Below are positions 2,585 through 41,697 of a stretch of 44,276 nucleotides of DNA, piece after piece. Numbering within the stretch: the stretch's first letter is position 1; each line of letters opens with the position of its first letter. The DNA is from a virus, in IMG/VR virus record IMGVR_UViG_3300047299_000293, positions 1-44,276 of that record; one strand, given 5' to 3'. The notes under the pieces are model-generated. The model ran no database searches and was not told where the DNA came from. It saw only the letters and a program-made list of their open reading frames with translations. A program made the translations under genes and the position numbers.

Positions 2585-3943
2585 TCAGGCTGCGACAGTT
2601 CGGTCGTAGGCCAGGATCGGAATCACGCGTCTGGCACTTTGTTCCGGGACTCCATGGACCTGCCCGAAGATGTCTTTGCGATCGTCACGAAAGTCACCGT
2701 CGATGAAATATGGAATGCAAGCCGTTAGGTACTCGAGGGCTGCAGCCAAAAACGGCACGTTGTCCGAATAAGCTGCGTCGCAACCTGCATCCCACAGCGG
2801 TCCTTGCAAAAACATGCATGAACCCTTGCACAGTTGCAGCACCGGGCAACTGGGGCAATCGGGCCTGTGGCTCCAGTGCGTGGCGCTGCGCATCTTGACC
2901 GCCTGCAGGTTGGACAAATGGCCAATTTGGTGGGGCTGCCCATTGGGCGCAGTGGCTGCTGCGCTGACGTTCTGACAGGTGAGCACATTGCCGTGCAGGT
3001 CCACCGCCAGGTTGTTCAGCTTGTCCATGCCGCACTTTTGACCCAGCGAGGTTGCTGGTCGAGCTGAGCGGATAGACTGCACAAAGTCCATGATGCGCTG
3101 CTGCGCCACCGACATGCGCGAAGCCAGGCCCTGGCGCAGTTCTTTGTAGGCCAAGGCCCTGAAACGCACCTGGTCCTGCTTGGTTTGCAAGGTTGCAGCT
3201 AGGCCGCCTTCGTCATAGGGGTCAATGAATGCACCCTCCCCGATGTTCACATCCTGGCCAAACCGCTGCTGAATCCATGCCTGAATCTGCGCCCGGCTTT
3301 GATTGCTGGCATGGACCATGGCGTTGATGCTGATACGGCCCAGAGGATGCAAGCGGGCATACAGGTCCATGATGGCGGCGCATTTCTCAGGGTCGTTCAA
3401 TGGATCGGGTCCACGGGTCGACTGGCCCGGACCGTCGTGTGACAAACCCACAGAAAAACCCATGCGGTCGAGCCACTCGTTTTTCTGGGCATCGAGCAAG
3501 CTGCCATTGGTGATGACGCTGAACTGCGCGTCCGAGTACAAGTCACGCAGGCGTTCAGCCAACGGTTTGAGCGTCTTCCAGTACACCAGGGGCTCCCCGC
3601 CCCAGAACTCGATGCGCTCAGGTGGTTCAAGAAGCGCATCGGTCAGCTGACTGATAAACGGCTCGATGTCATCCGGGTTGCTCGAGTCCGCATACGGCAC
3701 AAAGCGCTGGTTGCAGTAACTGCATTCGTAGTTGCAAGACAGCCCCAGGCTGATCTTAAGGATGCGCACCTGACCCTTGCGGCCGGGTTGGCTGAACGAC
3801 ACCACCGTGGCATCCCGGAAACTGCCAGGCTGAACAGGCGCCACGGGTGTGCCGTCCTGCCAGGTCAGCGTGGACAACTGGTTGTTGTAGTGCAGCAAGA
3901 CTTTATGGCCATCTTGACGCAAGGCGTGAATCTGAAACTTCAT
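2585..3943 (-). CDS. Radical SAM/SPASM protein-modifying enzyme (maturase)
   Basis: 452 aa. The radical-SAM cluster motif CxxxCxxC is Cys70, Cys74, Cys77, and the SAM-contacting GGEP is at 115-118. The C-terminal SPASM motif is complete: Cys304, Gly318-x4-Cys323, then Cys363-x2-Cys366-x5-Cys372-x3-Cys376 and Cys388. This predicts two extra [4Fe-4S] clusters, as in anaerobic sulfatase-maturing enzymes and PqqE-type peptide maturases. Such enzymes modify peptide or protein side chains by radical chemistry (thioether, C-C, epimerisation, formylglycine). Residues 1-60 are an extra N-terminal region of unknown role. The start overlaps the upstream oxygenase stop (ATGA). No sulfatase, short precursor peptide or exporter is nearby. 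The substrate is unknown, with the Cys-rich fibre tip at 7048-7083 the best candidate. Confidence 0.92.
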   Translation of the reverse strand: MKFQIHALRQDGHKVLLHYNNQLSTLTWQDGTPVAPVQPGSFRDATVVSFSQPGRKGQVRILKISLGLSCNYECSYCNQRFVPYADSSNPDDIEPFISQLTDALLEPPERIEFWGGEPLVYWKTLKPLAERLRDLYSDAQFSVITNGSLLDAQKNEWLDRMGFSVGLSHDGPGQSTRGPDPLNDPEKCAAIMDLYARLHPLGRISINAMVHASNQSRAQIQAWIQQRFGQDVNIGEGAFIDPYDEGGLAATLQTKQDQVRFRALAYKELRQGLASRMSVAQQRIMDFVQSIRSARPATSLGQKCGMDKLNNLAVDLHGNVLTCQNVSAAATAPNGQPHQIGHLSNLQAVKMRSATHWSHRPDCPSCPVLQLCKGSCMFLQGPLWDAGCDAAYSDNVPFLAAALEYLTACIPYFIDGDFRDDRKDIFGQVHGVPEQSARRVIPILAYDRTVAA

Positions 3944-4548
3944 GAAAGGGCCTTTTGCGGCTCATGCAGCCGCGTTTTGAACACCAAGACAGGCCGCAGA
4001 TCACGGCAGGCACGGGAGATGGGGTTGACGCCATGGCGGATGTGCCCAGCAAAGAAAACCACCCGAGCGGGCGCGGGCATGACCGAGCCCAGCAGGCGAT
4101 CCTCCTGGTCGTAGAAAACTGTTTCTCCGCCCCACCCCGCTTGCCACTGCCGCACACCGTAGATCAACAGGGTCCTGTCCAGCGGGTGCTGGCTGTCGAT
4201 GTGGACATTGCCTTCATTGCCGTGGGTGTTGGCATTGGCGTAGACGCCATGGCACTGGGTCATGACGGGCAGTAGCAGCGCCCGCATGCATGACCGCCAA
4301 ACATCAGAGAGCACGCCCGCCTGCTGCTGAAGAAACTGCGGCGTGCAGCTGTAGTCTGAAGCGTGGTTGATGGGCCAGTCCCGACCCAATAATTCGCGGT
4401 GCCAAATCGGAAATGGCTCCGGCTCGTTTTTGTTGGTGATGCGGTGGTAACGGTACTGAAGGTGCTGCAGCCAATCGACGAGCTCCTGCGTTACGCCCGG
4501 ATCCAGAACGCCATCGGCGAATGAAACGGGACTGCGGGCGTCAAGCAT
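3940..4548 (-). CDS. 2-oxoglutarate/Fe(II)-dependent dioxygenase
   Basis: 202 aa from the ATG at 4548, with GGAGG 7 bases upstream. It has the prolyl-4-hydroxylase-like core: HID (His116, Asp118), a GGETVFYD strand (140-147), distal His172 in HIRHGVNPIS, and Arg185 thirteen residues later in RPVLVFKTR for 2-oxoglutarate binding. This iron site and spacing fit the 2OG-FeII_Oxy family, which hydroxylates amino-acid side chains in proteins or peptides. It is sandwiched between a second oxygenase-like gene (8-base overlap) and the radical-SAM gene (ATGA overlap), so it probably acts on the same target. The substrate is not known. Confidence 0.82.
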   Translation of the reverse strand: MLDARSPVSFADGVLDPGVTQELVDWLQHLQYRYHRITNKNEPEPFPIWHRELLGRDWPINHASDYSCTPQFLQQQAGVLSDVWRSCMRALLLPVMTQCHGVYANANTHGNEGNVHIDSQHPLDRTLLIYGVRQWQAGWGGETVFYDQEDRLLGSVMPAPARVVFFAGHIRHGVNPISRACRDLRPVLVFKTRLHEPQKALS

Positions 4549-5260
4549 GTCCTGCCTCCGGTTCTGCCACCGAGTGAAACTCGATGGCCAGGGTGTCGCG
4601 CGTCTGGGTGCGTAGCGGAAAGTAACCATGCGGCGTGCACAAAGGCATGGTTACAAGCAGGCCCGGCTGGGGCGTGATCGGGAAATGCACTGGTGTTTCC
4701 CAGGGCAACAGGGTTTCATTGGCCCGTTTAGCCGGATTCCCAATGACCATACAACCCGGCGTTCGAACATTGGGGCTGTCGGTCGTTGGGTAATCGGATT
4801 GCAAGAACAACACCGTATTGAGCCCAGCACGCGAGCTGGCAATGTGCTCAGCCACATGAAAGCCCGGCTGGCAGCGCATGATGTGGGCACTCAAACGGTA
4901 GCGGTATGTGCCCCAGATGGATTGCAGGTGCTCACGGACCACCGCCAACATGTCATGCAGACCATCCGCCGGGGATACGCCCCCCTGCAACAGGTCATGG
5001 CTGCGGCACTGCCAGGCTTCAGGCCCCCAGCGGTGCTCGGCGTCTTCCCGAAGGATGGCCTTTGCCAGTCGTTCAAGCCTTTCCGGCGACAAGCCAGAGG
5101 GCTGGACGTACACGGTGCTGGGCCATAAAGAAAAAACCCAACGCTGGTGTGACGTTGGGTGGTTCTCTGAGACGTCGGCTGATGCACCTGGGTGCGGACT
5201 GGCTTGTGTGGCCACCGCCATGATGGATGGCGGGGCGTGCGCTGATGCGTCAAATGACAT
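4541..5260 (-). CDS. Oxygenase-like protein, possibly 2OG-Fe(II) type
   Basis: 239 aa. The start at 5260 has AAGGAG and overlaps the upstream stop by 11 bases. Residues 1-40 look disordered. The rest resembles a double-stranded beta-helix oxygenase: GFHVAEHIASSRAGLNTVLF (134-152; His135, Glu138, His139), then GLLVTMPLCTPHGYFP (200-215; His211), and RDTLAIEF (221-228; Arg221). The distal His followed ten residues later by Arg is typical of 2OG oxygenases, but a clean HxD is not seen, so the first metal ligands are uncertain. A strong terminator-like hairpin (5131-5160) lies within codons 34-43. A cupin-like non-enzymatic protein is the alternative. Confidence 0.55.
   Translation of the reverse strand: MSFDASAHAPPSIMAVATQASPHPGASADVSENHPTSHQRWVFSLWPSTVYVQPSGLSPERLERLAKAILREDAEHRWGPEAWQCRSHDLLQGGVSPADGLHDMLAVVREHLQSIWGTYRYRLSAHIMRCQPGFHVAEHIASSRAGLNTVLFLQSDYPTTDSPNVRTPGCMVIGNPAKRANETLLPWETPVHFPITPQPGLLVTMPLCTPHGYFPLRTQTRDTLAIEFHSVAEPEAGHA
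5131..5160 (-). terminator. Terminator-like hairpin inside the oxygenase coding region
   Basis: Arms 5136-5143 and 5153-5160 (ACCCAACG/CGTTGGGT) are perfectly complementary over 8 bp with a 9-base loop. On the minus strand the stem runs straight into TTTTT, then CTTT. It lies about 100 bases into the first oxygenase gene. It could be an attenuator limiting expression of the two oxygenases and the radical-SAM gene, or the relic of a terminator at the edge of an inserted cassette. Confidence 0.6.
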
Positions 5261-6239
5261 GAATCACTCCTTGGGCCAGTGCGGTGACGGCCCCAAATCC
5301 AAATTGAAGGTGCAGGTTTTCTCCAGCACGCAGGCCCAGGGACAGGGCCCGAATTTGGGCTCTTCCTGCAGTCATCCGGACGCGTTGGTGTGGGACATAG
5401 CCCGAGACGGCGTGCACATTCAGCCAGGCATCGGCGGGCTCTGAAGCCCGGATTTCGAGCTCCACCCACTGGTCTGTAGCAACCTCTGACGGTGCTTGCA
5501 CGGTGAGCTTGGGCATGCGTTCGTGCAGCCGGGTGATGGTGTGGGCATGCTGGGTCAATGCGTCACTTGGCTTGGCATAAGTTACGTACTCATCCACTTG
5601 TAGGTTGGTCCAAAGTGGTCCGCCTGGGTGAGCGTTGATGCGCAGAACCATCTGGGCGCTGAGCGGCGATTCATGCCATGGCACCAGACATGACCCGGCA
5701 ACCAAGTGCATCTGACGCGCCTTGGTGAGTGGCAAAGCCAAGGCGGTAAAGCCCTCGCTGTCTACCCGGCTGCTGCGGGTGACCACATGGCGATTGAAGG
5801 GTGTCATGAAGCGCCAGGTATCTGTGCACAGCACAAACATCCACGCGGCCCAATCACTCAGGTGCTCCCCATACATGCGGGGCTTGGCGCGCATGGCCTG
5901 TGGGTCGAGGGCGATTTCATCGACCAGGCCCCACGGCACACCATCAATGGTCTCGGTGTGGACGGATGGCATGTCCAGTCTGACCGGCAAGATATAGGGA
6001 CTGGGCTGGCCGCGTCTGAGCAATGAATGCGCTTTGAGGATTGATGCGCCTAAAGGATGTGCCCGATACTGCTTTTGGGTCACTTGGCCGACCGAACGGT
6101 CTGGCCTGAGCGACTCCAATGGCTCCCACAGCCGCCAGGTCAGGCGATCCGTTTCAGCCAGGACCTCCACAGCCAGCGGCTGCGTGAATTCATCGACCCG
6201 CTGTACGAAGCGCGCACGGACAATTTCAGTACCGCTCAC
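5250..6239 (-). CDS. Unknown phage protein with C-terminal beta-rich domain
   Basis: 329 aa from a GTG start at 6239 that overlaps the previous stop (GTGA) and has GGAGG upstream; upstream in-frame codons lack a ribosome site. No family recognised. Residues 1-240 are mixed and Trp/Met-rich (WAAWMFVLCTDTWRFMTPF). Residues about 245-329 read like an Ig-like beta-sandwich (KLTVQAPSEVATDQWVELEI, then LRAGENLHLQFGFG). It belongs to the tightly overlapping gene chain leading to the oxygenases and radical-SAM enzyme, so it may be a structural tail component or an accessory to the modification system. No signal peptide or membrane segment is seen. Confidence 0.7.
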   Translation of the reverse strand: MSGTEIVRARFVQRVDEFTQPLAVEVLAETDRLTWRLWEPLESLRPDRSVGQVTQKQYRAHPLGASILKAHSLLRRGQPSPYILPVRLDMPSVHTETIDGVPWGLVDEIALDPQAMRAKPRMYGEHLSDWAAWMFVLCTDTWRFMTPFNRHVVTRSSRVDSEGFTALALPLTKARQMHLVAGSCLVPWHESPLSAQMVLRINAHPGGPLWTNLQVDEYVTYAKPSDALTQHAHTITRLHERMPKLTVQAPSEVATDQWVELEIRASEPADAWLNVHAVSGYVPHQRVRMTAGRAQIRALSLGLRAGENLHLQFGFGAVTALAQGVIHVI

Positions 6240-7030
6240 ACCCGCACCTCCAGCTCTTCGACACCGCTGAACCACTTGAAACCCAACTTGATCTTGGCCA
6301 GAGCACCAGCGTCTGCGCCAAAGAGCGTGACAAGGGCTTGCCCTTGTTCCAGGTTTGGTCGGCTGTTGCTCAGGGCTCCGGCTGTGGTGCTCAGAAGCAC
6401 CTGCCCTGACACCGGGAGCACCATCCCCTGATCATTGACCGCCGTGATGCGGATGCGCCGGGGATCACCACCTTCATCGACCAAACGAAACGAGGGAAAC
6501 GCCAGAGCCATGGCAACCGAATTGCTTTCCCACTCTTGGTCAAACTCAAAACCCATCACCTCGGTTTGAACCGCTTGGGGAGAGCACATGAGCACCAGGG
6601 AAGGCTCCAAACCCAACGGTGGAATCCAAAACTGGGCCAAGACCAGCATGGGCTGCTGGTTCCAGTACTGCCGAAACCCTTCTTTAGACAAGGCAGTTTG
6701 CGCGAACTTGTTGATCCACACCGGCTCGCGCTCCCCTTGACGCAGTGCAAAGAGCCAAACGGTGTAGGCATTGCCGGGATCTTGCGCGAAGTTCTGCAGG
6801 TCACTTACTGTGACAGCATGGACAAATGCGCTTTGATGGCCGACCAACATCGGCGCAGACGATTCATCAATGACCCGACCACTTTCATCCAAGGCTTGCT
6901 CAAAAGCAGGCGTGAGGTGTTCGATCAAGAAATCGCCCTCCACCTTCTGAATGCGAATGAGGTTGGTTCGGTGCGCGTTTGTTGTGCTCGCAGGGCTTTG
7001 CATCGGATAAGACATGCGTATGGTTTTCAT
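6236..7030 (-). CDS. Unknown phage tail-region protein with C-terminal Ig-like domain
   Basis: 264 aa from the ATG at 7030 (AGGGGAT upstream). The frame is open for a further 16 codons into the fibre gene, but those codons come from the Cys-repeat DNA. It starts 14 bases after the fibre stop. Residues about 180-264 resemble a bacterial Ig-like/filamin-type sandwich (RIRITAVNDQGMVLPVSGQV, then ALVTLFGADAGALAKIKLG). The N-terminal part is not recognised. A short stretch, LVDEGG followed by basic residues, also appears near the fibre C-terminus. It may be a fibre-associated or fibre-maturation protein; the function is unknown. Confidence 0.7.
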   Translation of the reverse strand: MKTIRMSYPMQSPASTTNAHRTNLIRIQKVEGDFLIEHLTPAFEQALDESGRVIDESSAPMLVGHQSAFVHAVTVSDLQNFAQDPGNAYTVWLFALRQGEREPVWINKFAQTALSKEGFRQYWNQQPMLVLAQFWIPPLGLEPSLVLMCSPQAVQTEVMGFEFDQEWESNSVAMALAFPSFRLVDEGGDPRRIRITAVNDQGMVLPVSGQVLLSTTAGALSNSRPNLEQGQALVTLFGADAGALAKIKLGFKWFSGVEELEVRV

Positions 7031-7044
7031 GAGCAAATCCCCTT

Positions 7045-7980
7045 TCAGCAGCCACAGCAGTTGCAATTGCAGTTGCAATTGGTCAGCACATTCACCGTGC
7101 GCAACCGCACCTGTCCACCTTCATCAACCAGTTCGTAGTCATGCCGGGTTGTGATGTTGCCGCTGCCATAGCAATTGATGGCATAACCAGTGCCTGCGCA
7201 ATTGGCCACTTGCTTAAAGAAGTAGTCGTGCAGCCAACCATAGTTGGCGGTCCACATGGAGCCGCCGTTGTTCATGTACATGTCCCAATTGCCGTCGGTC
7301 TTCAAAAACCCCATCAGGTTGCTGTTGACGTGCAGGTAACGGGTGCTGCCCTGGTCTGTGTCGTAAAAGTCGATCGTGGGCGAGGTGCTCTGTACGGTCT
7401 GACTGGGCAATGTCAGGCGCCCACTCATGCTGTCGCCAGTACGCGCTACCCGCCCCGACAAATCGATGTTGACCGTGGCGTTGCCGTTCGCGTCCGGACC
7501 ACCACCGTTAACCGAGCGGACAAAGGCCGAGGCATCGTAGCCGTCCAGGCGGTCTGCGTCCATCGCCTTGGCATTGATACCCAAATAGGCCGAGTTGTGG
7601 TTGTGTGAAGCTGAAGCAAAAGCACTGGCGTGCTGACCGTCGAGCAAGTCGGCATCGAGCCCGGAGCCCGCGCCATCCACCGTGAGCAGTTTGGCCAGCA
7701 CGTCCGCTGCTGTGTAAGCAGCCGCATTGAGCTTGACCGCGAACTGGGCATCGATCCCACTGGCCAGGTCCATGATGAAGCGCCAGTTGTCCGGGTTGGT
7801 ACCAATCAGCTGGTAAAGCTTGAGCTGGTCCGTGCGGTAGCACAGCATGCCCACTTGCTGGTTGGTCGTCGGAAATGTGGTGCCGCTGTTGCAGGAGATC
7901 GCCGTCTTGTCGTTGTTCAGGATCTCGATGAGCGAGTCAGACAGCGTGCGCGACGACGGTATGTCGGTGAAGTTTTGCAT
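7045..7980 (-). CDS. Tail fibre/receptor-binding protein with Asn-Cys-rich C-terminal tip
   Basis: 311 aa. The N-terminal part (NSGTTFPTTNQQVGMLCYRT, then LKLYQLIGT) is typical of a phage fibre attachment region. The middle has two fibre repeats of the LLDGQHASAF/RLDGYDASAF type, an HNHN motif like those near metal-binding fibre tips, and SGRVARTGDSMSGRLTLPSQ. The C-terminal region is Gly/Asn/Trp-rich with Cys263 and Cys273. The last twelve residues are Thr, four Asn-Cys pairs, then Cys-Gly-Cys. This tail is unlike ordinary fibre tips or chaperone domains. The five genes directly downstream form an overlapping chain ending in two oxygenase-like enzymes and a radical-SAM/SPASM maturase. Confidence 0.85.
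   Translation of the reverse strand: MQNFTDIPSSRTLSDSLIEILNNDKTAISCNSGTTFPTTNQQVGMLCYRTDQLKLYQLIGTNPDNWRFIMDLASGIDAQFAVKLNAAAYTAADVLAKLLTVDGAGSGLDADLLDGQHASAFASASHNHNSAYLGINAKAMDADRLDGYDASAFVRSVNGGGPDANGNATVNIDLSGRVARTGDSMSGRLTLPSQTVQSTSPTIDFYDTDQGSTRYLHVNSNLMGFLKTDGNWDMYMNNGGSMWTANYGWLHDYFFKQVANCAGTGYAINCYGSGNITTRHDYELVDEGGQVRLRTVNVLTNCNCNCNCCGC
7048..7083 (-). repeat. Asn-Cys repeat at the fibre C-terminus (12-bp DNA repeat)
   Basis: Codons 300-311 of the fibre gene. The DNA contains the 12-base unit GTTGCAATTGCA nearly twice, giving alternating Asn (AAC/AAT) and Cys (all TGC) codons, then Cys-Gly-Cys before TGA. Six of the last ten residues are Cys. TTGCAA is self-complementary, so the tract could expand or contract by slippage. 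In sequence composition it resembles the core of a ribosomally made, post-translationally modified peptide. Confidence 0.8.
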
Positions 7981-9849: not shown

Positions 9850-9875
9850 AAAAAAATCAGCGCACTGCTCAGTGC
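9850..9875 (-). terminator. Weak terminator-like hairpin at the end of J
   Basis: GCACT-GCTC-AGTGC (62-66/71-75 within 9862-9875) is a 5-bp stem overlapping the J stop codon. On the minus strand it is followed after five bases by a run of seven T. The stem is short, so termination would be partial at best. Confidence 0.35.
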
Positions 9876-12800
9876 AGCCGCAAACTGCTGAACGCACCCA
9901 CGGGCTCAAGCCGTGCGCTGGCCGACTGGACACCGCCGCCCATCCGGGCGGCAAAGAGGCGGCGTTCTGTGCTAGTCTGGCAAACCCCCAGGCAGATCCG
10001 ATCGGATGCTTCCAGTTCAAATGCGAGCGTGATTCGCCGGGACAAATGGTCTTCCAGAAAGAAGCCTTGGGTTTGGGCGTCGTAGCCCAGCAGCAAATGG
10101 CCGACTGGCCCTGTTGCTTTCCAGATCACGCAAGTCGTGACCTCTTGGGGGATGAACCAGAACGAGGTGTGGAACACCTGCGGCAGGCTCACAGTCCAGG
10201 CCACCTGGGTGGTGTCCTTGACCATCAGCCCCTTGCCGTAGCGGCCATCGCCGTAACTCACGCCCGCCGACTGGATCGTTACTGCATTGCCAATGCCCAT
10301 CACAGATCCGCTGAGCCGCCAGCCGTAGAGTTCACCCGGGTGCAGCACATCCTCTCGCGCCATCTGAAACCGCGCATCCACGTTGGCGATGGCGCCGTCG
10401 TAGGTCCACTGCCGCCGGGCGGCGTCACCGCTCCAGACAAAGTTGGCTTCCTGCCAGGTGGTGCGGTCATCGACCGAAGCGCCCAGACTGCTGAGCAAGG
10501 TGTTCTGTGCCCGGATGGGCGAGACCAGATCCAACTCGAACAGGTATTCGGCCACTTGCGCGCCGGTGTTCATGCGCAGCACGTTTTTGCCATTGACCGT
10601 GACCACCGAGGCGAAGTGCTTGGTGCCAGCAAAGCCCCCTGCTTGCTCGTCACGCTCGAGGATCAGGTTGGCGTTTTGCGGCTGAGCCACCACGGTCGAG
10701 ACGAAAGTGGGCGTGTCGCTGTAGATCCCGGGCGAGGCGATCGCCTTGATCCAGAACTTGCGCTCGCCATCAAATCCGGAGGGCAGCGTGTAGCTGGTGG
10801 ACTTGACCTCGGCCACAAACAGCGATGCGTCCCATGCCGCACCTTCTCGCAGCTCATAGCCCACCACCTCGGGCTCTGGGTTGGGTTGCCAGCGAAACTC
10901 CAGCCGGTTGGCCGACTGCACGACATCGAACTGGCGCACCGTGGCCGGGGCCAGCAAGGTCAGCACAAAGGTGTTGACATGCGCGCTGTATTGGCCCGAG
11001 GTGTCATAAGCGCGGATGTGGTACGGGTACTGCCCGGCCGCGTCCTGGTCGTGGACCATCTGGGTGCCCGAGGTCTTGGCGACCAGTAGGGCGTCGTCCC
11101 AGCCTGGCCCCACTCTCACCTCATAGCCCGCCAGATCGGCATCGGGCAGTTCGTCCCAGCTCAGCAGCAGATCGGACATGCGCCGCTGCACGGTAAAGCC
11201 GGTCACATCCGACGGGGGCAGTGTCTTGCCCAGCACCGTGGCGCTGAGTGTGGCGGGCGCACTTTCTTTGCGGGTGATGCCGATGGCCTTTAAGCTGAAC
11301 TCATACTCCCCCTCTTGTGCATCCCGGATTTCTGCGTAATTGGCGCTCACCAGCGGCAGGCTCTCGAAATTGCCACCGCCTACCCGGTAAGCAAGCCGGT
11401 AAGCAATGGCACTAGGTACCTCAGCCCAGGACAGTTGCACCAGCACCTGCGCCCGGTCTTTGACCCGGTACAGGCTCTCTCGCATGCTGAGGGCCGTGGG
11501 GGCGGCAGGCATGTCCGACAGCACCGTGATGGCGCGCGGCTGCAGCGCCAGGCCCTCTTCAATGGCCGCGTACTTGCCCGGGTTGTGGGCCAGAGCCGTG
11601 ACTTCATGCACACCGGGCTCGCGCTCGGCCGCTGACACCACCCGAAACAGTTGTGGCACGATGATGGAAGAAGCCAGTACCCAAATGGCATCGGTTTGCG
11701 GCGCCATGCTGAAGGGGATGGTGACCGTGAGGGTTCGCCGAGCGTGTGCATCACCACTGGACGCAGCGAAGGTAGCCCCCACCAGGCGCTCTTCTACACT
11801 GCCATTGGGCAAGATCACCGAAAGCCACCAAGGCAAATCGGCTGGCAAATCCTGGTCCAGGGTAACGCTGGTGGTGGTAGCTGCTGCGACGCGCCCCCCA
11901 AGGCGCATGCCGCCCCGACTTGGGTCAGCCACCTGGATGACATCGCCCGGGCGCACCACTGCGCCTTCCAATCCTGTTCGGAAGGTGATGATTTCTGATT
12001 CAGACTGCTCGGAATACAGCAGCCACTTGCCCACCCGGTTGGCCTGCCCGCGCGAGGTGCAGCCCATGGCCACCACATCGGCTTGCACCACGCCGTAACG
12101 AGCGATGCCTACGACGTCCTCAACGTATTCCACCTTCTGCCTGTAAAAATCCTCCGGATCGACCCAGCTGACCAGGGCCACGGTGTGCCGGGCTTTGGCA
12201 GACGAGCCCTGGTAGGCGAACTCGCCATCGATGACGTTGGCAGCGGTGAATTGGTAGACCGGGTCTTGGGGCGCATCTTGCGTGACGGTGATGGCTCCAC
12301 CCGACCAATAGGCCATGCCCCGAAAGACCGAAGCCATGTCCTGCACCACCTTGTAGGCCTGCTCGCGTGTTTGCAGGTAGAGGTTGCAGGTGAAGCGAGG
12401 CTCGAGACCACCCAGGCCATCGGGCACGAATTCGTCACAGTAACGGGCCACCCGGTACAGGGCCCACTTGTCGACCTGGGACTCAGGGATGAAATGCCCC
12501 AAGCCATAACGGGTGTTGGTGACCAGATCGTAAAAACACCAAGCCGGGTTATCCGTCCAGGCCACCTTGAAGGTGCCATCCCAGACACCCGCGTATGAAC
12601 GGGACTCGGATTCATAGTTGGACGGCACCCGCACACGCAGGAGTTTGAGCTCGTAGCTGCGCCGGGGGATGGCGTTGAACTGCGAGGCGTCCACCCGCAA
12701 GGCCATCAGGGCGCTGTTGGGGTAGCGCAGCTTGCTTTCGATGACCTCAGTGTACGAGTCCAGAAAGGTCTTGTTTTGCAGGCTGCTTTGGGTCGCGTCC

Positions 12801-13414
12801 TCGGTCAGTCTGCGAAGACGAACATCCCAAGGGCCTGTGCCGGACAGTGGCACGTAGTAACTGCGTTGATAACGCGAAGTGGTCTTGCCAGAGACCGTGT
12901 CGGTGAGCAATTGAACAAAACCAGCGCCTGCTGACTGCAAGTCGATCGCATAGCTCACCGATGTGCCGTTCAAGTCGCCGTTGGTCGTGTCCTGCAAGGT
13001 GAGCGCGGGCATGCTCACTTTAAGGCGCACAGCGTCCACGTCGGGGTCGGTGATGGCGCGCACGACCGGCTGGGCAAACTTGCACTCCACGCCGACCGAG
13101 ACTTCGTTTTCTACCGAAGCAAAGCCCGGGATGTAACCCTGCTGCTGGGTGCCGGGGCGGCTTTCAAGTGTCACCCCAGAAAAGTTGTAGCTGCCATCGG
13201 CATTCTGAATCGGCGTGTCGTCCAGAAAGACCGACTGCAGGCCCTGGACCAGGCCTTCGATTTCTCCCTCGCAGACCAAATCGACCACACGGGCGTAGGC
13301 TTTGGAGCGCAGGCTTTCGGCAGCTTCCTGGGCCACACGGGCGCTACCGCCGCCCGACTTGCCACCGCCACCTGCGCCGATGATCAAAGGATTTGAAGCT
13401 GGCATCAGATTCAT
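9869..13414 (-). CDS. J: Tail tip/host specificity protein J (lambda gpJ-like)
   Basis: 1181 aa, the size of lambda J. The Gly-rich N-terminus (GAGGGGKSGGG) leads into the typical J start: AYARVVDLVCEGEIEGLVQG, VFLDDTPIQNADGSYNF. The central part has the tail-tip features ending at ITVTQDAP and VSWVDPEDFYRQKVEYVED. Several fibronectin type III-like modules follow from about residue 600 (TVQRRMSDLLLSWDELPDAD, VVQSANRLEFRWQPNPEPEV). A distal lectin/concanavalin-like region at about 930-1175 may bind the receptor. The start at 13414 shares its surrounding sequence (ATCACTGC before ATGAA) with the K start, supporting this codon over ATG 13405. Forms the central tail tip. Confidence 0.93.
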   Translation of the reverse strand: MNLMPASNPLIIGAGGGGKSGGGSARVAQEAAESLRSKAYARVVDLVCEGEIEGLVQGLQSVFLDDTPIQNADGSYNFSGVTLESRPGTQQQGYIPGFASVENEVSVGVECKFAQPVVRAITDPDVDAVRLKVSMPALTLQDTTNGDLNGTSVSYAIDLQSAGAGFVQLLTDTVSGKTTSRYQRSYYVPLSGTGPWDVRLRRLTEDATQSSLQNKTFLDSYTEVIESKLRYPNSALMALRVDASQFNAIPRRSYELKLLRVRVPSNYESESRSYAGVWDGTFKVAWTDNPAWCFYDLVTNTRYGLGHFIPESQVDKWALYRVARYCDEFVPDGLGGLEPRFTCNLYLQTREQAYKVVQDMASVFRGMAYWSGGAITVTQDAPQDPVYQFTAANVIDGEFAYQGSSAKARHTVALVSWVDPEDFYRQKVEYVEDVVGIARYGVVQADVVAMGCTSRGQANRVGKWLLYSEQSESEIITFRTGLEGAVVRPGDVIQVADPSRGGMRLGGRVAAATTTSVTLDQDLPADLPWWLSVILPNGSVEERLVGATFAASSGDAHARRTLTVTIPFSMAPQTDAIWVLASSIIVPQLFRVVSAAEREPGVHEVTALAHNPGKYAAIEEGLALQPRAITVLSDMPAAPTALSMRESLYRVKDRAQVLVQLSWAEVPSAIAYRLAYRVGGGNFESLPLVSANYAEIRDAQEGEYEFSLKAIGITRKESAPATLSATVLGKTLPPSDVTGFTVQRRMSDLLLSWDELPDADLAGYEVRVGPGWDDALLVAKTSGTQMVHDQDAAGQYPYHIRAYDTSGQYSAHVNTFVLTLLAPATVRQFDVVQSANRLEFRWQPNPEPEVVGYELREGAAWDASLFVAEVKSTSYTLPSGFDGERKFWIKAIASPGIYSDTPTFVSTVVAQPQNANLILERDEQAGGFAGTKHFASVVTVNGKNVLRMNTGAQVAEYLFELDLVSPIRAQNTLLSSLGASVDDRTTWQEANFVWSGDAARRQWTYDGAIANVDARFQMAREDVLHPGELYGWRLSGSVMGIGNAVTIQSAGVSYGDGRYGKGLMVKDTTQVAWTVSLPQVFHTSFWFIPQEVTTCVIWKATGPVGHLLLGYDAQTQGFFLEDHLSRRITLAFELEASDRICLGVCQTSTERRLFAARMGGGVQSASARLEPVGAFSSLRLH

Positions 13415-38288: not shown

Positions 38289-39294
38289 TTCATGGTTCAC
38301 CCTCAGCCGCGAAGACCAGGCTGAAGCACTCGAAGTGGCTGCCGCTCAGACCGGACGCCCGCCTCACCTTCTGGAAAAAGACATCTGGGTCGTCTGGACC
38401 CTGTCTGCCATCTATGGGTCAGCCCTTGCGGAAAAACTGACCTTCAAAGGCGGCACCTCGCTGTCCAAGGTCTACAAGATCATCGATCGGTTCTCCGAAG
38501 ACATTGACCTGACCTACGACATCCGCGAAGTGGTTCCGGATCTACTGCGCGATGGCAACCCAATTCCCGCCTCATCGAGTCAGGCCAAAAAGATCACTGA
38601 CCGGGTTCGCGAACGATTGCCCCAGTGGATTGAGGGCGAAGTGGTTCCGATCCTGCTGTCCGCCCTTGAGCGTGATGGACTGCGTGCCAGTCTGACACTT
38701 GCTGGCAATGAGCAGGAAAAACTCATCCTGGCATATGAGCCCATCAAGGTAGGCACCGGCTATGCGCCATCCACCATTCAGCTGGAGTTTGGTGGACGAG
38801 CCACGGGTGAACCGCACCAGCGCCATAACGTCGCATGCGACATGGCACCGGCCATCAATGGAATTGAATTCCCGACGGCGCAACCTTTGGTGATGGCCGC
38901 CGAACGGACTTTCTGGGAGAAAGCCACGGCAGCACATGTGTACTGCAAGCAGGGCCGACTGCGTGGCGAACGCTATTCAAGGCACTGGTACGACCTGGCC
39001 GCCATGGCCAACTCGGGACATGCCCAAAAGGCGATCACGGATCTCGAACTGGCCCACGCAGTGGCTGAACACAAGTCGATGTTCTTTGCCGAAAAAGATG
39101 TCGACAAGGCACCGATTAACTACAGAGCAGCGGTCAGCGCTGGAATTCAGATCATCCCCGACGGGCATGCGCTCGAAGCACTCAAAAAAGACTATGCCGC
39201 CATGCTGGAAGATGGCTTGCTCTCCACGCACCAGCCCAGCTTTGACGAAGTCATCTCCGCCTGCGCCCAGCTACAAAGCCTGATCAACCGATAG
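38281..39294 (+). CDS. abiEii: AbiEii-type nucleotidyltransferase toxin
   Basis: 337 aa from TTG 38281; no ATG or GTG is available near the domain start. Nucleotidyltransferase signature: LTFKGGTSLSKVYKIIDRFS (GGTSLSK 57-63) with SEDIDLTY (Asp74, Asp76) as metal ligands. Then VMAAERTFWEKATAAHVYC and SRHWYDLAAM, typical of the PF08843 family. Such toxins add nucleotides to tRNA 3' ends or otherwise block translation and stop growth when released. Its 3' end overlaps the convergent 39271-40242 gene by 24 bases. Confidence 0.92.
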   Translation: MADSWFTLSREDQAEALEVAAAQTGRPPHLLEKDIWVVWTLSAIYGSALAEKLTFKGGTSLSKVYKIIDRFSEDIDLTYDIREVVPDLLRDGNPIPASSSQAKKITDRVRERLPQWIEGEVVPILLSALERDGLRASLTLAGNEQEKLILAYEPIKVGTGYAPSTIQLEFGGRATGEPHQRHNVACDMAPAINGIEFPTAQPLVMAAERTFWEKATAAHVYCKQGRLRGERYSRHWYDLAAMANSGHAQKAITDLELAHAVAEHKSMFFAEKDVDKAPINYRAAVSAGIQIIPDGHALEALKKDYAAMLEDGLLSTHQPSFDEVISACAQLQSLINR

Positions 39295-40242
39295 CACCAA
39301 GCGATACAAGCCATGCCGACGCTGGCGCATGACCAGTGCTTCGTAGACATGCAGTGGCCCTTCATAGCTCGGATCCCCACGGTTTGCCGCCTTGATCTTG
39401 AACACATCGATCGGCCGCGCACTGTCCAGCCCCGCTTCCCGCATGAGGAACTCCGCCGACTGCGCCTGATGCCGGTGCGCCCAGAGCGCAGAAAACAGGC
39501 GTGCCTGCGCTTCAGACAATCGAATCGGGCCATGTGGCCAGTCATCCAGATGCACCCACATGAAGTCCTCGCTGAACGGTCCGTGGACGGCGGCCGGAGT
39601 GACGTCATCCGTTGGGTCAATAGCCACATTCTGCTCCCCGGCAAGCAGCCGTAACGACATGCCATGCAGGGCGAACCTGTCTTCCAACTGCCACCAGATG
39701 GCCGTTCCTGCCAATGGATCCGCAGGCATTTTCCCCAAAGGCCTGGGCGTGATCACCCAGCTTTGGCGCCGAGGCTGTGGTCCATGGAATATCCGCAACC
39801 CATGGCGCTCCACCAGATCAATCCGGCGCGCCAGTACCACGGGCCGCTTCTTGTACCGGCCGATCTCCCAGACCCCATCGGCGATGAGGGTGACGGATGC
39901 ATGCGGTGCGATGTCCATGGCAGCGCGCAATTTGCGGATCAGCCAGTCATCATCGATTTTCCAGTTGCGCTGACTGGCCGGGTCCAATCCATACGGACCA
40001 CAGTCAGGGCACTGAACCATTAGCCCCTCACTGCTTCTAAAAATCGGCCCGCGATACAGACCACAAAACCCGCACAAGGCATCGCTGGTATTGGCCGCCC
40101 CGGCGATCACGGCCTTGGCCTGCTTGAGAACGCCAAGGGCGCAAACCTCGCCTTCATGCAGGCTGATCTCCGCAAAAAACCCGCCACGCACGAACAGCAG
40201 GGCCATGAGGCTCATGGCTTGTTGGTTGGGTGTAGACGCCAT
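39271..40242 (-). CDS. Unknown protein with zinc ribbon, partner of the 416-aa gene
   Basis: 323 aa from ATG 40242 (GAGGTG upstream). A CxxC-x-CxxC zinc ribbon lies at about residues 52-76 (LCGFCGLYRGPIF, QCPDCGPYG). The middle is IGRYKKRPVVLARRIDLVER, WVITPRPLGKMPADPLAG. The C-terminal part, IRLSEAQARLFSALWAHRHQ and SAEFLMREAGLDSARPIDVF, resembles a winged-helix/response-regulator-like DNA-binding domain. No family recognised. It starts 7 bases after the 416-aa gene, forming a two-gene unit in the accessory arm next to AbiE. Confidence 0.7.
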   Translation of the reverse strand: MASTPNQQAMSLMALLFVRGGFFAEISLHEGEVCALGVLKQAKAVIAGAANTSDALCGFCGLYRGPIFRSSEGLMVQCPDCGPYGLDPASQRNWKIDDDWLIRKLRAAMDIAPHASVTLIADGVWEIGRYKKRPVVLARRIDLVERHGLRIFHGPQPRRQSWVITPRPLGKMPADPLAGTAIWWQLEDRFALHGMSLRLLAGEQNVAIDPTDDVTPAAVHGPFSEDFMWVHLDDWPHGPIRLSEAQARLFSALWAHRHQAQSAEFLMREAGLDSARPIDVFKIKAANRGDPSYEGPLHVYEALVMRQRRHGLYRLVLSVDQAL

Positions 40243-40249
40243 CTGCACC

Positions 40250-41500
40250 TCAAACAAACAAGTCGGTGGTCACAAGCGACTGCGCTCCCTGCTCTCGATC
40301 AGGCTTGAACACCTGGCGCTCATTGAGAATGCCCAGCTCAACCAGATAGCCCTCGAGTTGCGCGCGCAGTTTTTCATCGAACTTGTGCAGGTTCAGCCGC
40401 CCCTTGCTTGTGAGCTCCACGCTGAGCACTTGTCGTCGGCTTTTGCCCTGCATCGGCGCAAGGCAAAAATTGAGGATCGCCGCCTGGATCGCCCAGCCAC
40501 GGGTGAGCGGGTTTTCTGCTCCGAAATACTGAGCCAGCAAGTCGGTCACGCAGCGCTGCTCACTGCCCGCAGTCGCAGCACTGGCGGTGCATTCGAGCTT
40601 GAGCTGGCCGCAATCGCTGACTACCGTCACACTCTTGACCTGCAGGCCCACAAATCCATCCTCGATTGCCCGTGGAATGTTCATCCCCAGGCGCAGGCTC
40701 GACAGGTTCAGGCGTGGCGTCTGAATGCGCTGCGCATCGGCATCCACACCCAGCATGTGCCGGGCAAAGGCTTCGCAGAGCATGGCGTGGTATTTGGCCC
40801 CGCCACGGATGATGGTGCGAGCCACTCCGGTGGCTTGAGCGTACTCGAGCACCATGTGAATGTTGGGACTGCCCACACGCCGCTGTAACTGGCCGCCTTC
40901 GAACTCCAGCTTGGCCGTTGCCATGTCCTTGGCATGGATGGAGACCAGCTGCGTACCTTGCGCCCGGTCGAGCACGTTGACCACGCAGACCTCGCCGCAA
41001 CCCAGCTCCCGCTGGTAGAACCCTTTGATGGCCTCACCGAAGGCTGCTATCGAAGCCTCGTCGCGGTGGATGGCACGCTTGATGCCCAGATCGTGCTGCT
41101 GGGCTTGCTGCCCGTGATGGTCCAGGTACTCGATCTCGGCCGCCGACTCAAACAGCGCCGGGTGGTGAACGTACAACCAAAACGCGCGGTGCAGATCGCT
41201 TTTGCAGGCGATCAGCGCCATCAGCTCCGACGGCCTGTCGTGCGCAACCTGAAACATGGCCTGCTTGCCCAGGGGGTGGGCCAGCAGTGTGCTGGCGTGC
41301 AAGCCAGCCACGATGCGGTCGCGCATGGGCACCACCGGATGGCCCTGGATGAGTCCGGCCAGTCGTCTGGAAGTGTGGACCGTGTCATCCCACATCCAGC
41401 CCTCGGGCAAAGGCAAGGCATGGCGCTGCATGAAGGTTTTAAGGGTGTCGTCGACAGGCAGGTGCAACAGGATGTCGGCGTAGGTCTGAGGTCTGCTCAT
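40250..41500 (-). CDS. Unknown 416-aa protein, first gene of a two-gene accessory unit
   Basis: 416 aa from ATG 41500 with AAAGGAG upstream. Mostly soluble alpha/beta: DILLHLPVDDTLKTFMQRHA at the start, HDLGIKRAIHRDEASIAAFG, VCVVNVLDRAQGTQLVSIHA, MVLEYAQATGVARTIIRGGA, and a C-terminal helical region with winged-helix character (LSVELTSKGRLNLHKFDEKL, QLEGYLVELGILNERQVF). No catalytic motif is recognised. Paired with the zinc-ribbon protein and placed between abiE and the integration cassette, a slot where phages carry defence or lysogenic-conversion genes. Confidence 0.65.
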   Translation of the reverse strand: MSRPQTYADILLHLPVDDTLKTFMQRHALPLPEGWMWDDTVHTSRRLAGLIQGHPVVPMRDRIVAGLHASTLLAHPLGKQAMFQVAHDRPSELMALIACKSDLHRAFWLYVHHPALFESAAEIEYLDHHGQQAQQHDLGIKRAIHRDEASIAAFGEAIKGFYQRELGCGEVCVVNVLDRAQGTQLVSIHAKDMATAKLEFEGGQLQRRVGSPNIHMVLEYAQATGVARTIIRGGAKYHAMLCEAFARHMLGVDADAQRIQTPRLNLSSLRLGMNIPRAIEDGFVGLQVKSVTVVSDCGQLKLECTASAATAGSEQRCVTDLLAQYFGAENPLTRGWAIQAAILNFCLAPMQGKSRRQVLSVELTSKGRLNLHKFDEKLRAQLEGYLVELGILNERQVFKPDREQGAQSLVTTDLFV

Positions 41501-41697
41501 TGAAGGTCTCCTTTGTCGTTGTTTATGTTTCGGCAATGAGGCGTCTCAACCCCTGACCTCGGTGGTCTGGGGCTGGGTGTGAGTTTTGCCGGATTGCTGG
41601 ACAAATATACAGCTTTTGGCAGTTTTGTCAAAACCGCCGCTGGCAGGCTCATGGATCAAGGCAGTCGGCCAAAAAAATCACGGATTGATGCGCTTCT

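Follow-up and report, generated by a model that had tools for sequence, protein, structure and literature searches.

Which protein is modified by a radical S-adenosylmethionine (SAM) enzyme whose gene lies next to phage tail genes? This question is raised by the IMG/VR virus record IMGVR_UViG_3300047299_000293, which was analyzed over a stretch of 44,276 nt (subsequently designated the window). Terminase, portal, protease, major head protein, tape measure and a J-like tip protein were recognized, and the window reads as a lambda-like siphophage. On the minus strand, the J-like gene (9869-13414) is followed by two tail-region genes, the gene of a tail-fiber-like protein, genes E, D and C, a 2-oxoglutarate (2OG)-Fe(II) oxygenase gene and the gene of a radical-SAM/SPASM enzyme (Table 1). 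We propose with good confidence that the phage thereby encodes a maturation system for a virion protein, in which a C-terminal (Asn/Asp/Ala-Cys)n tail would be matured by the adjacent radical-SAM/SPASM enzyme.

Assignment of the candidate substrate as a tail fiber is based on PHROG tail-fiber matches (phrog_7389, E 2e-10; phrog_19602, E 4e-8) and on its position in the tail module, behind the J-like gene and two other genes of the tail region. Its open reading frame ends, as translated, in TNCNCNCNCCGC (shorter stretch, ...LTNCNCNCNCCGC), and the Asn-Cys-pair C-terminus described in the original prediction is indeed present as NCNCNCNCCGC at residues 301-311. The candidate enzyme carries the radical-SAM/SPASM peptide-modifying motif: the CX3CX2C core is formed by C70, C74 and C77, and all seven SPASM cysteines that had been claimed are in place (C304, C323, C363, C366, C372, C376 and C388). 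In an alignment of 23 relatives these ten cluster cysteines are invariant or nearly so, and two models score over cutoff. Its family, phrog_1802 ("radical SAM domain-containing protein"), includes gp30 of the Achromobacter phage JWF and comes without function or substrate; the link to the (NC)n tail is provided by the present analysis.

To assess the pairing of enzyme and tail, IMG/VR was searched with the radical-SAM enzyme alone, yielding 77 loci, which were collapsed at 90% identity and required to have at least 6 kb upstream. A C-terminal (N/D/A-Cys)n tail protein was found upstream in 42 of the resulting 43 non-redundant viral loci, with ends such as NCNCNCNCDCYC, NCNCNCACNCNCACNCNC and QCNCNCACDC, while the 43rd (locus L075) has a variant tail with the C-terminus NCTSACACACNCGG. 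This is the outcome that the original prediction had asked for. Among bacterial and archaeal genomes, the tail was present at about sixty of 79 loci of the enzyme, the exceptions including truncated contigs, deep-branching non-phage enzymes and a decayed copy. In the latter (L271, Polynucleobacter necessarius), the reading frame of the enzyme is in pieces and the tail run is degenerate (NCNCDRNCGC).

In the opposite direction, viral contigs were scanned independently for NC[N/D]CNCNC codons. Among the matches listed, 46 non-redundant tails are C-terminal and have 4 kb or more of sequence behind them, and all 46 are accompanied by a same-strand relative of the enzyme; of 12 reading frames whose run is not C-terminal, 1 has such a relative. 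Nine tails had no enzyme in the locus, and all of these lie within 1.9 kb of a contig end. For a matched comparison, loci were gathered by the gene before the fiber and by the fiber N-terminus, again with a minimum of 4 kb downstream and after removal of near-duplicates. Among relatives of the fiber N-terminus, 38 have both tail and enzyme, 40 have neither and none is discordant (Fisher 4e-23), but most tail-negative ones match short generic fiber motifs only, so that the properly matched comparison consists of few loci. Two of these (L328 and L330) keep the fiber N-terminus of the same family and carry a different end, with neither tail nor enzyme. Relatives of the gene before the fiber gave 42 loci with both, 2 with neither and no discordance. 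Among relatives of the fiber or of gene G with 4 kb or more downstream, none of those lacking the enzyme showed a tail. In the sole locus first scored as discordant (L336), NCDCNCNCGTC is continued by CFPLDTMLTMANG, which resembles the start of a Hint domain. These reciprocal and co-absence tests led us to reject a hitchhiking neighbor as origin of the pairing.

As judged from gene content, the pairing of enzyme and tail is near-obligate. The central idea, maturation of the Cys tail by the radical-SAM enzyme, is strongly supported, as cassettes regularly lacking a Cys-rich tail were encountered in neither search direction across many different phages. We consider it very likely that the enzyme acts on the tail, and just as likely that the tail is present in the virion.

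The tail is not confined to one fiber, as the original prediction had it, but appears on many scaffolds as a transferable module. The run comprises 3-10 pairs in 104 non-redundant loci and ends at most 8 residues from the C-terminus in 97 of these; in one it ends at 17 residues, and in six a Hint-type domain follows directly. The lengths of the carrier proteins lie between 65 and 1082 aa, with most at 170-1082 aa and a minority at 65-147 aa. Several carriers on different scaffolds match tail-fiber PHROGs, and one has CBM5/12 carbohydrate-binding repeats. Counted over unique runs, Cys is preceded by Asn in 243, Ala in 49 and Asp in 45 of 364 cases (together 337/364), while Gly is found in 2/364 against a background of 12.8% in the same proteins. 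The avoidance of Gly, Ser and Thr at this position would fit, without proving it, a substrate that is used at an unbranched beta carbon. Codons for Asn and Cys of the run drift synonymously among relatives, whereas the residues are kept. This drift, the lack of tails in enzyme-less relatives and the location of all lone tails near contig ends led us to reject chance or a DNA repeat as origin of the run.

Where the run is not terminal, a self-cleaving domain may take care of its exposure. In the cultured Achromobacter phages JWF and 2-1, a Hint domain (Hom_end_hint, PF05203; 47.5 and 46.6 bits, cutoff 32.1) directly follows the run, with the block C-FPAGT...ADGT at the junction and the catalytic N-terminal Cys present. 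Both block and Pfam match are shared with Hint/intein autoprocessing domains; here, however, the domain is placed after a fiber Cys run, a pairing of which we found no description. The position of a self-cleaving domain directly behind the run suggests that the C-terminal location of the run matters. Apart from the two phages, the arrangement is seen in several prophage or viral loci (in total L080:9835-11286, L079:9796-11238, L225, L244, L262, L266, L267 and L336:11348-12772; Pfam-tested for JWF and 2-1, by eye for L336). A further form is found in Rhodobacterales (L249, L250, L251, L257, L258, L260, L270), where a small separate tail protein of 94-226 aa ending in NCNCNCRC (NCNCACRC in L260) is located at a constant 635 bp before the enzyme gene. 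Thalassobacter stenotrophicus has at least 3 copies of this form, and L249 shows a short 2OG-like-looking gene between tail and enzyme as well as fiber-like genes upstream.

Which bond would be formed? Thioether bridges are our tentative first choice and the most likely single option, because Cys is the constant residue, the SPASM domain is complete and the best models include a ranthipeptide maturase. PapB gave the best NCBIfam maturase score, although the enzyme stays below every curated maturase (equivalog) cutoff (PapB 57.2/340 bits, geopeptide 47.7/400, sulfatase 43.3/349, others lower). The PDB profile match 5wgg (CteB) is a full-length relative. Likeness to maturases of ribosomally synthesized and post-translationally modified peptides (RiPPs), i.e. 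PapB and CteB for ranthipeptides and AlbA-type enzymes for sactipeptides, comprises the CX3CX2C core, the SPASM cysteines and a Cys-rich repeated substrate next to the enzyme. An alternative would be epimerization of every second residue (D-Asn/L-Cys), known from polytheonamide, so that the tip would be stiff, as a beta-helix or in another form, and free of thioethers. PoyD-type epimerases act on alternating N-x-N-x stretches, which offers a lead only, and the strict period of two, the preference for Asn before Cys and the presence of epimerase YydG among PDB relatives (common core only) point in the same direction. However, an epimerase would need no Cys at each second position and would leave the constancy of Cys unexplained, and seven-Cys SPASM domains are typical of crosslinking or formylglycine enzymes; we regard epimerization as unlikely. 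Still less probable is a reaction like that of anaerobic sulfatase maturation, in which Cys would be oxidized to formylglycine and the aldehydes of the tip would bind amines of the host surface. Structures of anaerobic sulfatase-maturating enzymes are among the PDB matches covering core and SPASM regions (E ~1e-13), and JWF gp30 is labelled sulfatase-maturating in one record. But the run lacks a C/S-x-P/A-x-R motif and each of its Cys residues is conserved, and sulfatase maturation was rejected given the missing motif and the score far below cutoff.

Thioether formation within a full-size protein has a precedent in QhpD, the SPASM maturase of quinohemoprotein amine dehydrogenase, which installs thioethers inside a functional protein. 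The QhpD model matches the window enzyme weakly (36/453 bits), and QhpD is non-phage and has a different substrate. NCBIfam also names a 2OG oxygenase (FlmC) and a radical-SAM peptide maturase (FlmE/OhkG) together, but the window enzymes show weak similarity and are not members (52.8 bits against a cutoff of 240, and 26/500 bits, respectively); no paper describing this pair was found in open-access full text.

The genes between tail and enzyme show what is dispensable. Among 104 arrangements, an Ig-like (immunoglobulin-like) protein gene followed by a 2OG oxygenase gene is found in 23, an Ig-like gene alone in 16 and no gene at all in 7. A family of ~310-380 aa (component 6) occupies the interval in 7, an Ig-like gene followed by a second radical-SAM gene in 6, and a 2OG gene followed by a gene for a JWF gp29-like protein in another 6, besides rarer sets. 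The intervening 2OG families match PF13759 and PF13640, and the second radical-SAM enzyme matches PF04055. In several two-gene loci tail and enzyme genes are separated by 9-19 bp. As the intervening genes vary, tail and radical-SAM enzyme are the core and the rest accessory, and a fixed five-gene cassette was rejected as unit. Oxygenases and Ig-like proteins, listed as parts of the system in the original prediction, are thus frequent, but replaceable rather than essential. The same data bear on the idea that the Cys tail stays unmodified and binds metal or an Fe-S cluster or forms disulfides, the enzyme acting on another cassette or host protein. Dense Cys runs are plausible metal ligands, and a tail alone could harden the tip of a trimer; however, tail and enzyme are gained and lost together, each intervening protein can be absent and two-gene forms exist, making this quite unlikely. 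The second, shorter radical-SAM enzyme (~340 aa) was observed between tail and main enzyme in L112, L059, L060, L062, L113, L132 and L236.

Table 1. Tail-side genes of the window and the proposed modification site.
Feature	Position	Strand	Basis
Radical-SAM/SPASM maturase (candidate), 452 aa	2585..3943	-	PF04055 and TIGR04085 SPASM over cutoff; phrog_1802 E 2e-57
2OG-Fe(II) oxygenase, likely start internal ATG ~4548	3940..4629	-	PF13640 E 5.5e-7, over cutoff; HxD..H intact
Gene C, 2OG-Fe(II) oxygenase fold	4541..5260	-	AlphaFold2 and Foldseek; relatives match PF13759
Gene D, second Ig-like partner protein	5250..6275	-	Same blast family as E
Gene E, Ig-like partner protein, likely start internal ATG ~7033	6236..7078	-	Blast family shared with D (component 0, 106 loci)
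Tail-fiber-like protein, 311 aa, substrate candidate	7045..7980	-	PHROG tail-fiber matches; tail-module position
Proposed site of modification: C-terminal tail NCNCNCNCCGC, residues 301-311	7048..7080	-	Translation; (N/D/A-Cys)n C-terminal in homologous/analogous protein of relatives

Could the cassette instead make a small RiPP-type peptide, such as a bacteriocin or signal, with the location at the fiber being incidental? Non-phage relatives of the enzyme do sit in RiPP-type clusters with an ABC exporter carrying a C39 peptidase or with YcaO genes, and some tail proteins have 65-125 aa only. But most phage tails are fused to proteins of 170-1082 aa that are often fiber-like, and Hint follows where the run is non-terminal. 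Also, no exporter or leader peptidase was present in Pfam matches of the window genes tested (1-10 kb), and no separate short precursor is found in the cassette, the substrate candidate being the 311-aa fiber; both absences agree with what had been reported before. Of the alternatives weighed, this one is the least probable. What sets the enzyme apart from RiPP maturases is its proposed substrate, a C-terminus of a structural-type phage protein in place of a short leader-core peptide, and its scores far below the curated cutoffs. The mode is RiPP-like, but since short precursor and exporter are missing, we do not class the cassette as a RiPP cluster. The neighborhoods with C39 exporter or YcaO make a common ancestry of the phage form and RiPP maturation probable; a quick tree of the enzymes has several long branches and leaves the direction unsettled. 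Examples are L238 and L256, where relatives are encoded beside ABC exporters (C39 peptidase domain in L238) and no phage genes were recognized nearby, and L263:7391-9691 and L259:7342-9753 from Variovorax and Ramlibacter, where they lie beside YcaO/nitroreductase fusions. The latter two are candidate uncharacterized RiPP clusters, with a short possible precursor at 9768-9977 in L263. NC-type precursors were not recognized near the non-phage enzymes.

Several points weigh against maturation of a virion tail by the enzyme, in addition to the small size of the matched comparison. Deep-branching relatives outside phages have no such tail, and L074, which has 3.4 kb upstream of the enzyme gene, shows none. 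Some tail proteins of 65-125 aa have no fiber match and could be non-virion proteins. The reaction is not assignable by family, given the distance of the enzyme from curated cutoffs, and the Ig-like partner is left unexplained. Finally, action of the enzyme on the tail is deduced from sequence pairing, placement and motifs.

On balance, we envisage the following sequence of events. A fiber or small fiber-tip protein would be made with a C-terminal (Asn/Asp/Ala-Cys)n extension, which the neighboring radical-SAM/SPASM enzyme would modify in the infected cell, before or during fiber assembly. Most likely, Cys sulfurs would be joined to carbons of the adjacent Asn, Asp or Ala, resulting in a small, rigid and protease-resistant tip. 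An Ig-like protein and one or two 2OG oxygenases, the latter probably as Asn or Asp hydroxylases, may contribute in many phages, and some may use a second radical-SAM enzyme in addition. Where a Hint domain follows the run, it would cut itself off, exposing the modified end. Candidate functions of the product would be stiffening of the tip, metal binding, binding of a receptor or passage through the outer membrane. A role of the tail in contact with receptor or envelope appears rather probable. The broader picture, to which we lean to a similar degree, is a widespread modular virus system for crosslinked non-canonical tips, which would be made from an (Asn-Cys)n fiber extension by a radical-SAM enzyme, frequently together with 2OG oxygenases, and would serve in contact with or breach of the host envelope, in some cases after being unveiled by Hint.

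Fiber tips, which largely decide which bacteria can be infected, are commonly viewed as consisting of the twenty ordinary residues. If the proposal holds, a kind of chemistry that is familiar chiefly from small bacterial peptides would act on a virus tip in contact with the receptor, and part of the phage-host interface would consist of post-translational chemistry that is invisible to sequence-based structure prediction. To our knowledge, it would be the first radical-SAM-matured virion protein. Phage contigs carrying the module of enzyme and tail number well over a hundred, and prophages of cultured bacteria have it too; the module offers radical-SAM enzymology an enzyme/substrate pair that identifies itself by a simple-repeat substrate, and phrog_1802 a testable role. 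The pair corresponds to no curated family and no description was found in open-access full text, which is weak evidence of novelty as preprints and most subscription papers lay outside the search. For JWF and its relative Lumi, the passages found in the respective papers (PMC3899368, PMC9959647) contain no virion proteomics of the fiber tip.

The accessory proteins of the window were characterized further. The first oxygenase is a clear 2OG-Fe(II) enzyme, as had been stated: besides the Pfam match it has the HxD...H iron triad (H143 and D145 of HxD at 143-145, H196) and R209/R212. The PHROG label "DNA endonuclease V" for this gene was rejected in view of the Pfam assignment; the label, from phrog_274, has spread to many cyanophage records and looks like a propagated misannotation. 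Gene C, previously a "possible oxygenase", was unrecognized by any sequence library tried. Its AlphaFold2 model (mean pLDDT 64) has a prolyl-hydroxylase-like 2OG fold, matching PHD2 and bacterial P4H in Foldseek (E ~5e-8, probability 1.00). However, HIA (H139, A141; distal H211) occupies the aligned iron-ligand site at 139-141 and lacks the carboxylate ligand of HxD/E, while several relatives carry HTE, HVE or HND. HxA/G is the hallmark of Fe/2OG halogenases, making halogenation by gene C a remote lead. The Ig-like C-termini ascribed to D and E receive weak structural support, the C-terminal beta domain of the E model (pLDDT 80-90) showing a weak local match to intimin Ig domains. Conceivably, the Ig-like protein might hold the tip or present it to the enzymes.

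The chain of genes, for which overlaps of 4-11 bases had been given, is confirmed. The radical-SAM and 2OG genes overlap by 4 bases (3940-3943), and genes C and D by 11 (5250-5260). The overlap of the 2OG gene with gene C is ~8 bases from the internal ATG and 89 with the first ATG. Overlaps of D with E and of E with the fiber gene depend on start choice, the internal ATG of E abolishing the latter. Elsewhere in the window, 1-918 encodes an HTH_17 DNA-binding domain fused to a NusG-like antiterminator, and 39271-41536 contains two adjacent genes: the product of the first (328 aa) has no PHROG match, and that of the second (428 aa) matches only phrog_37634 (function unknown).

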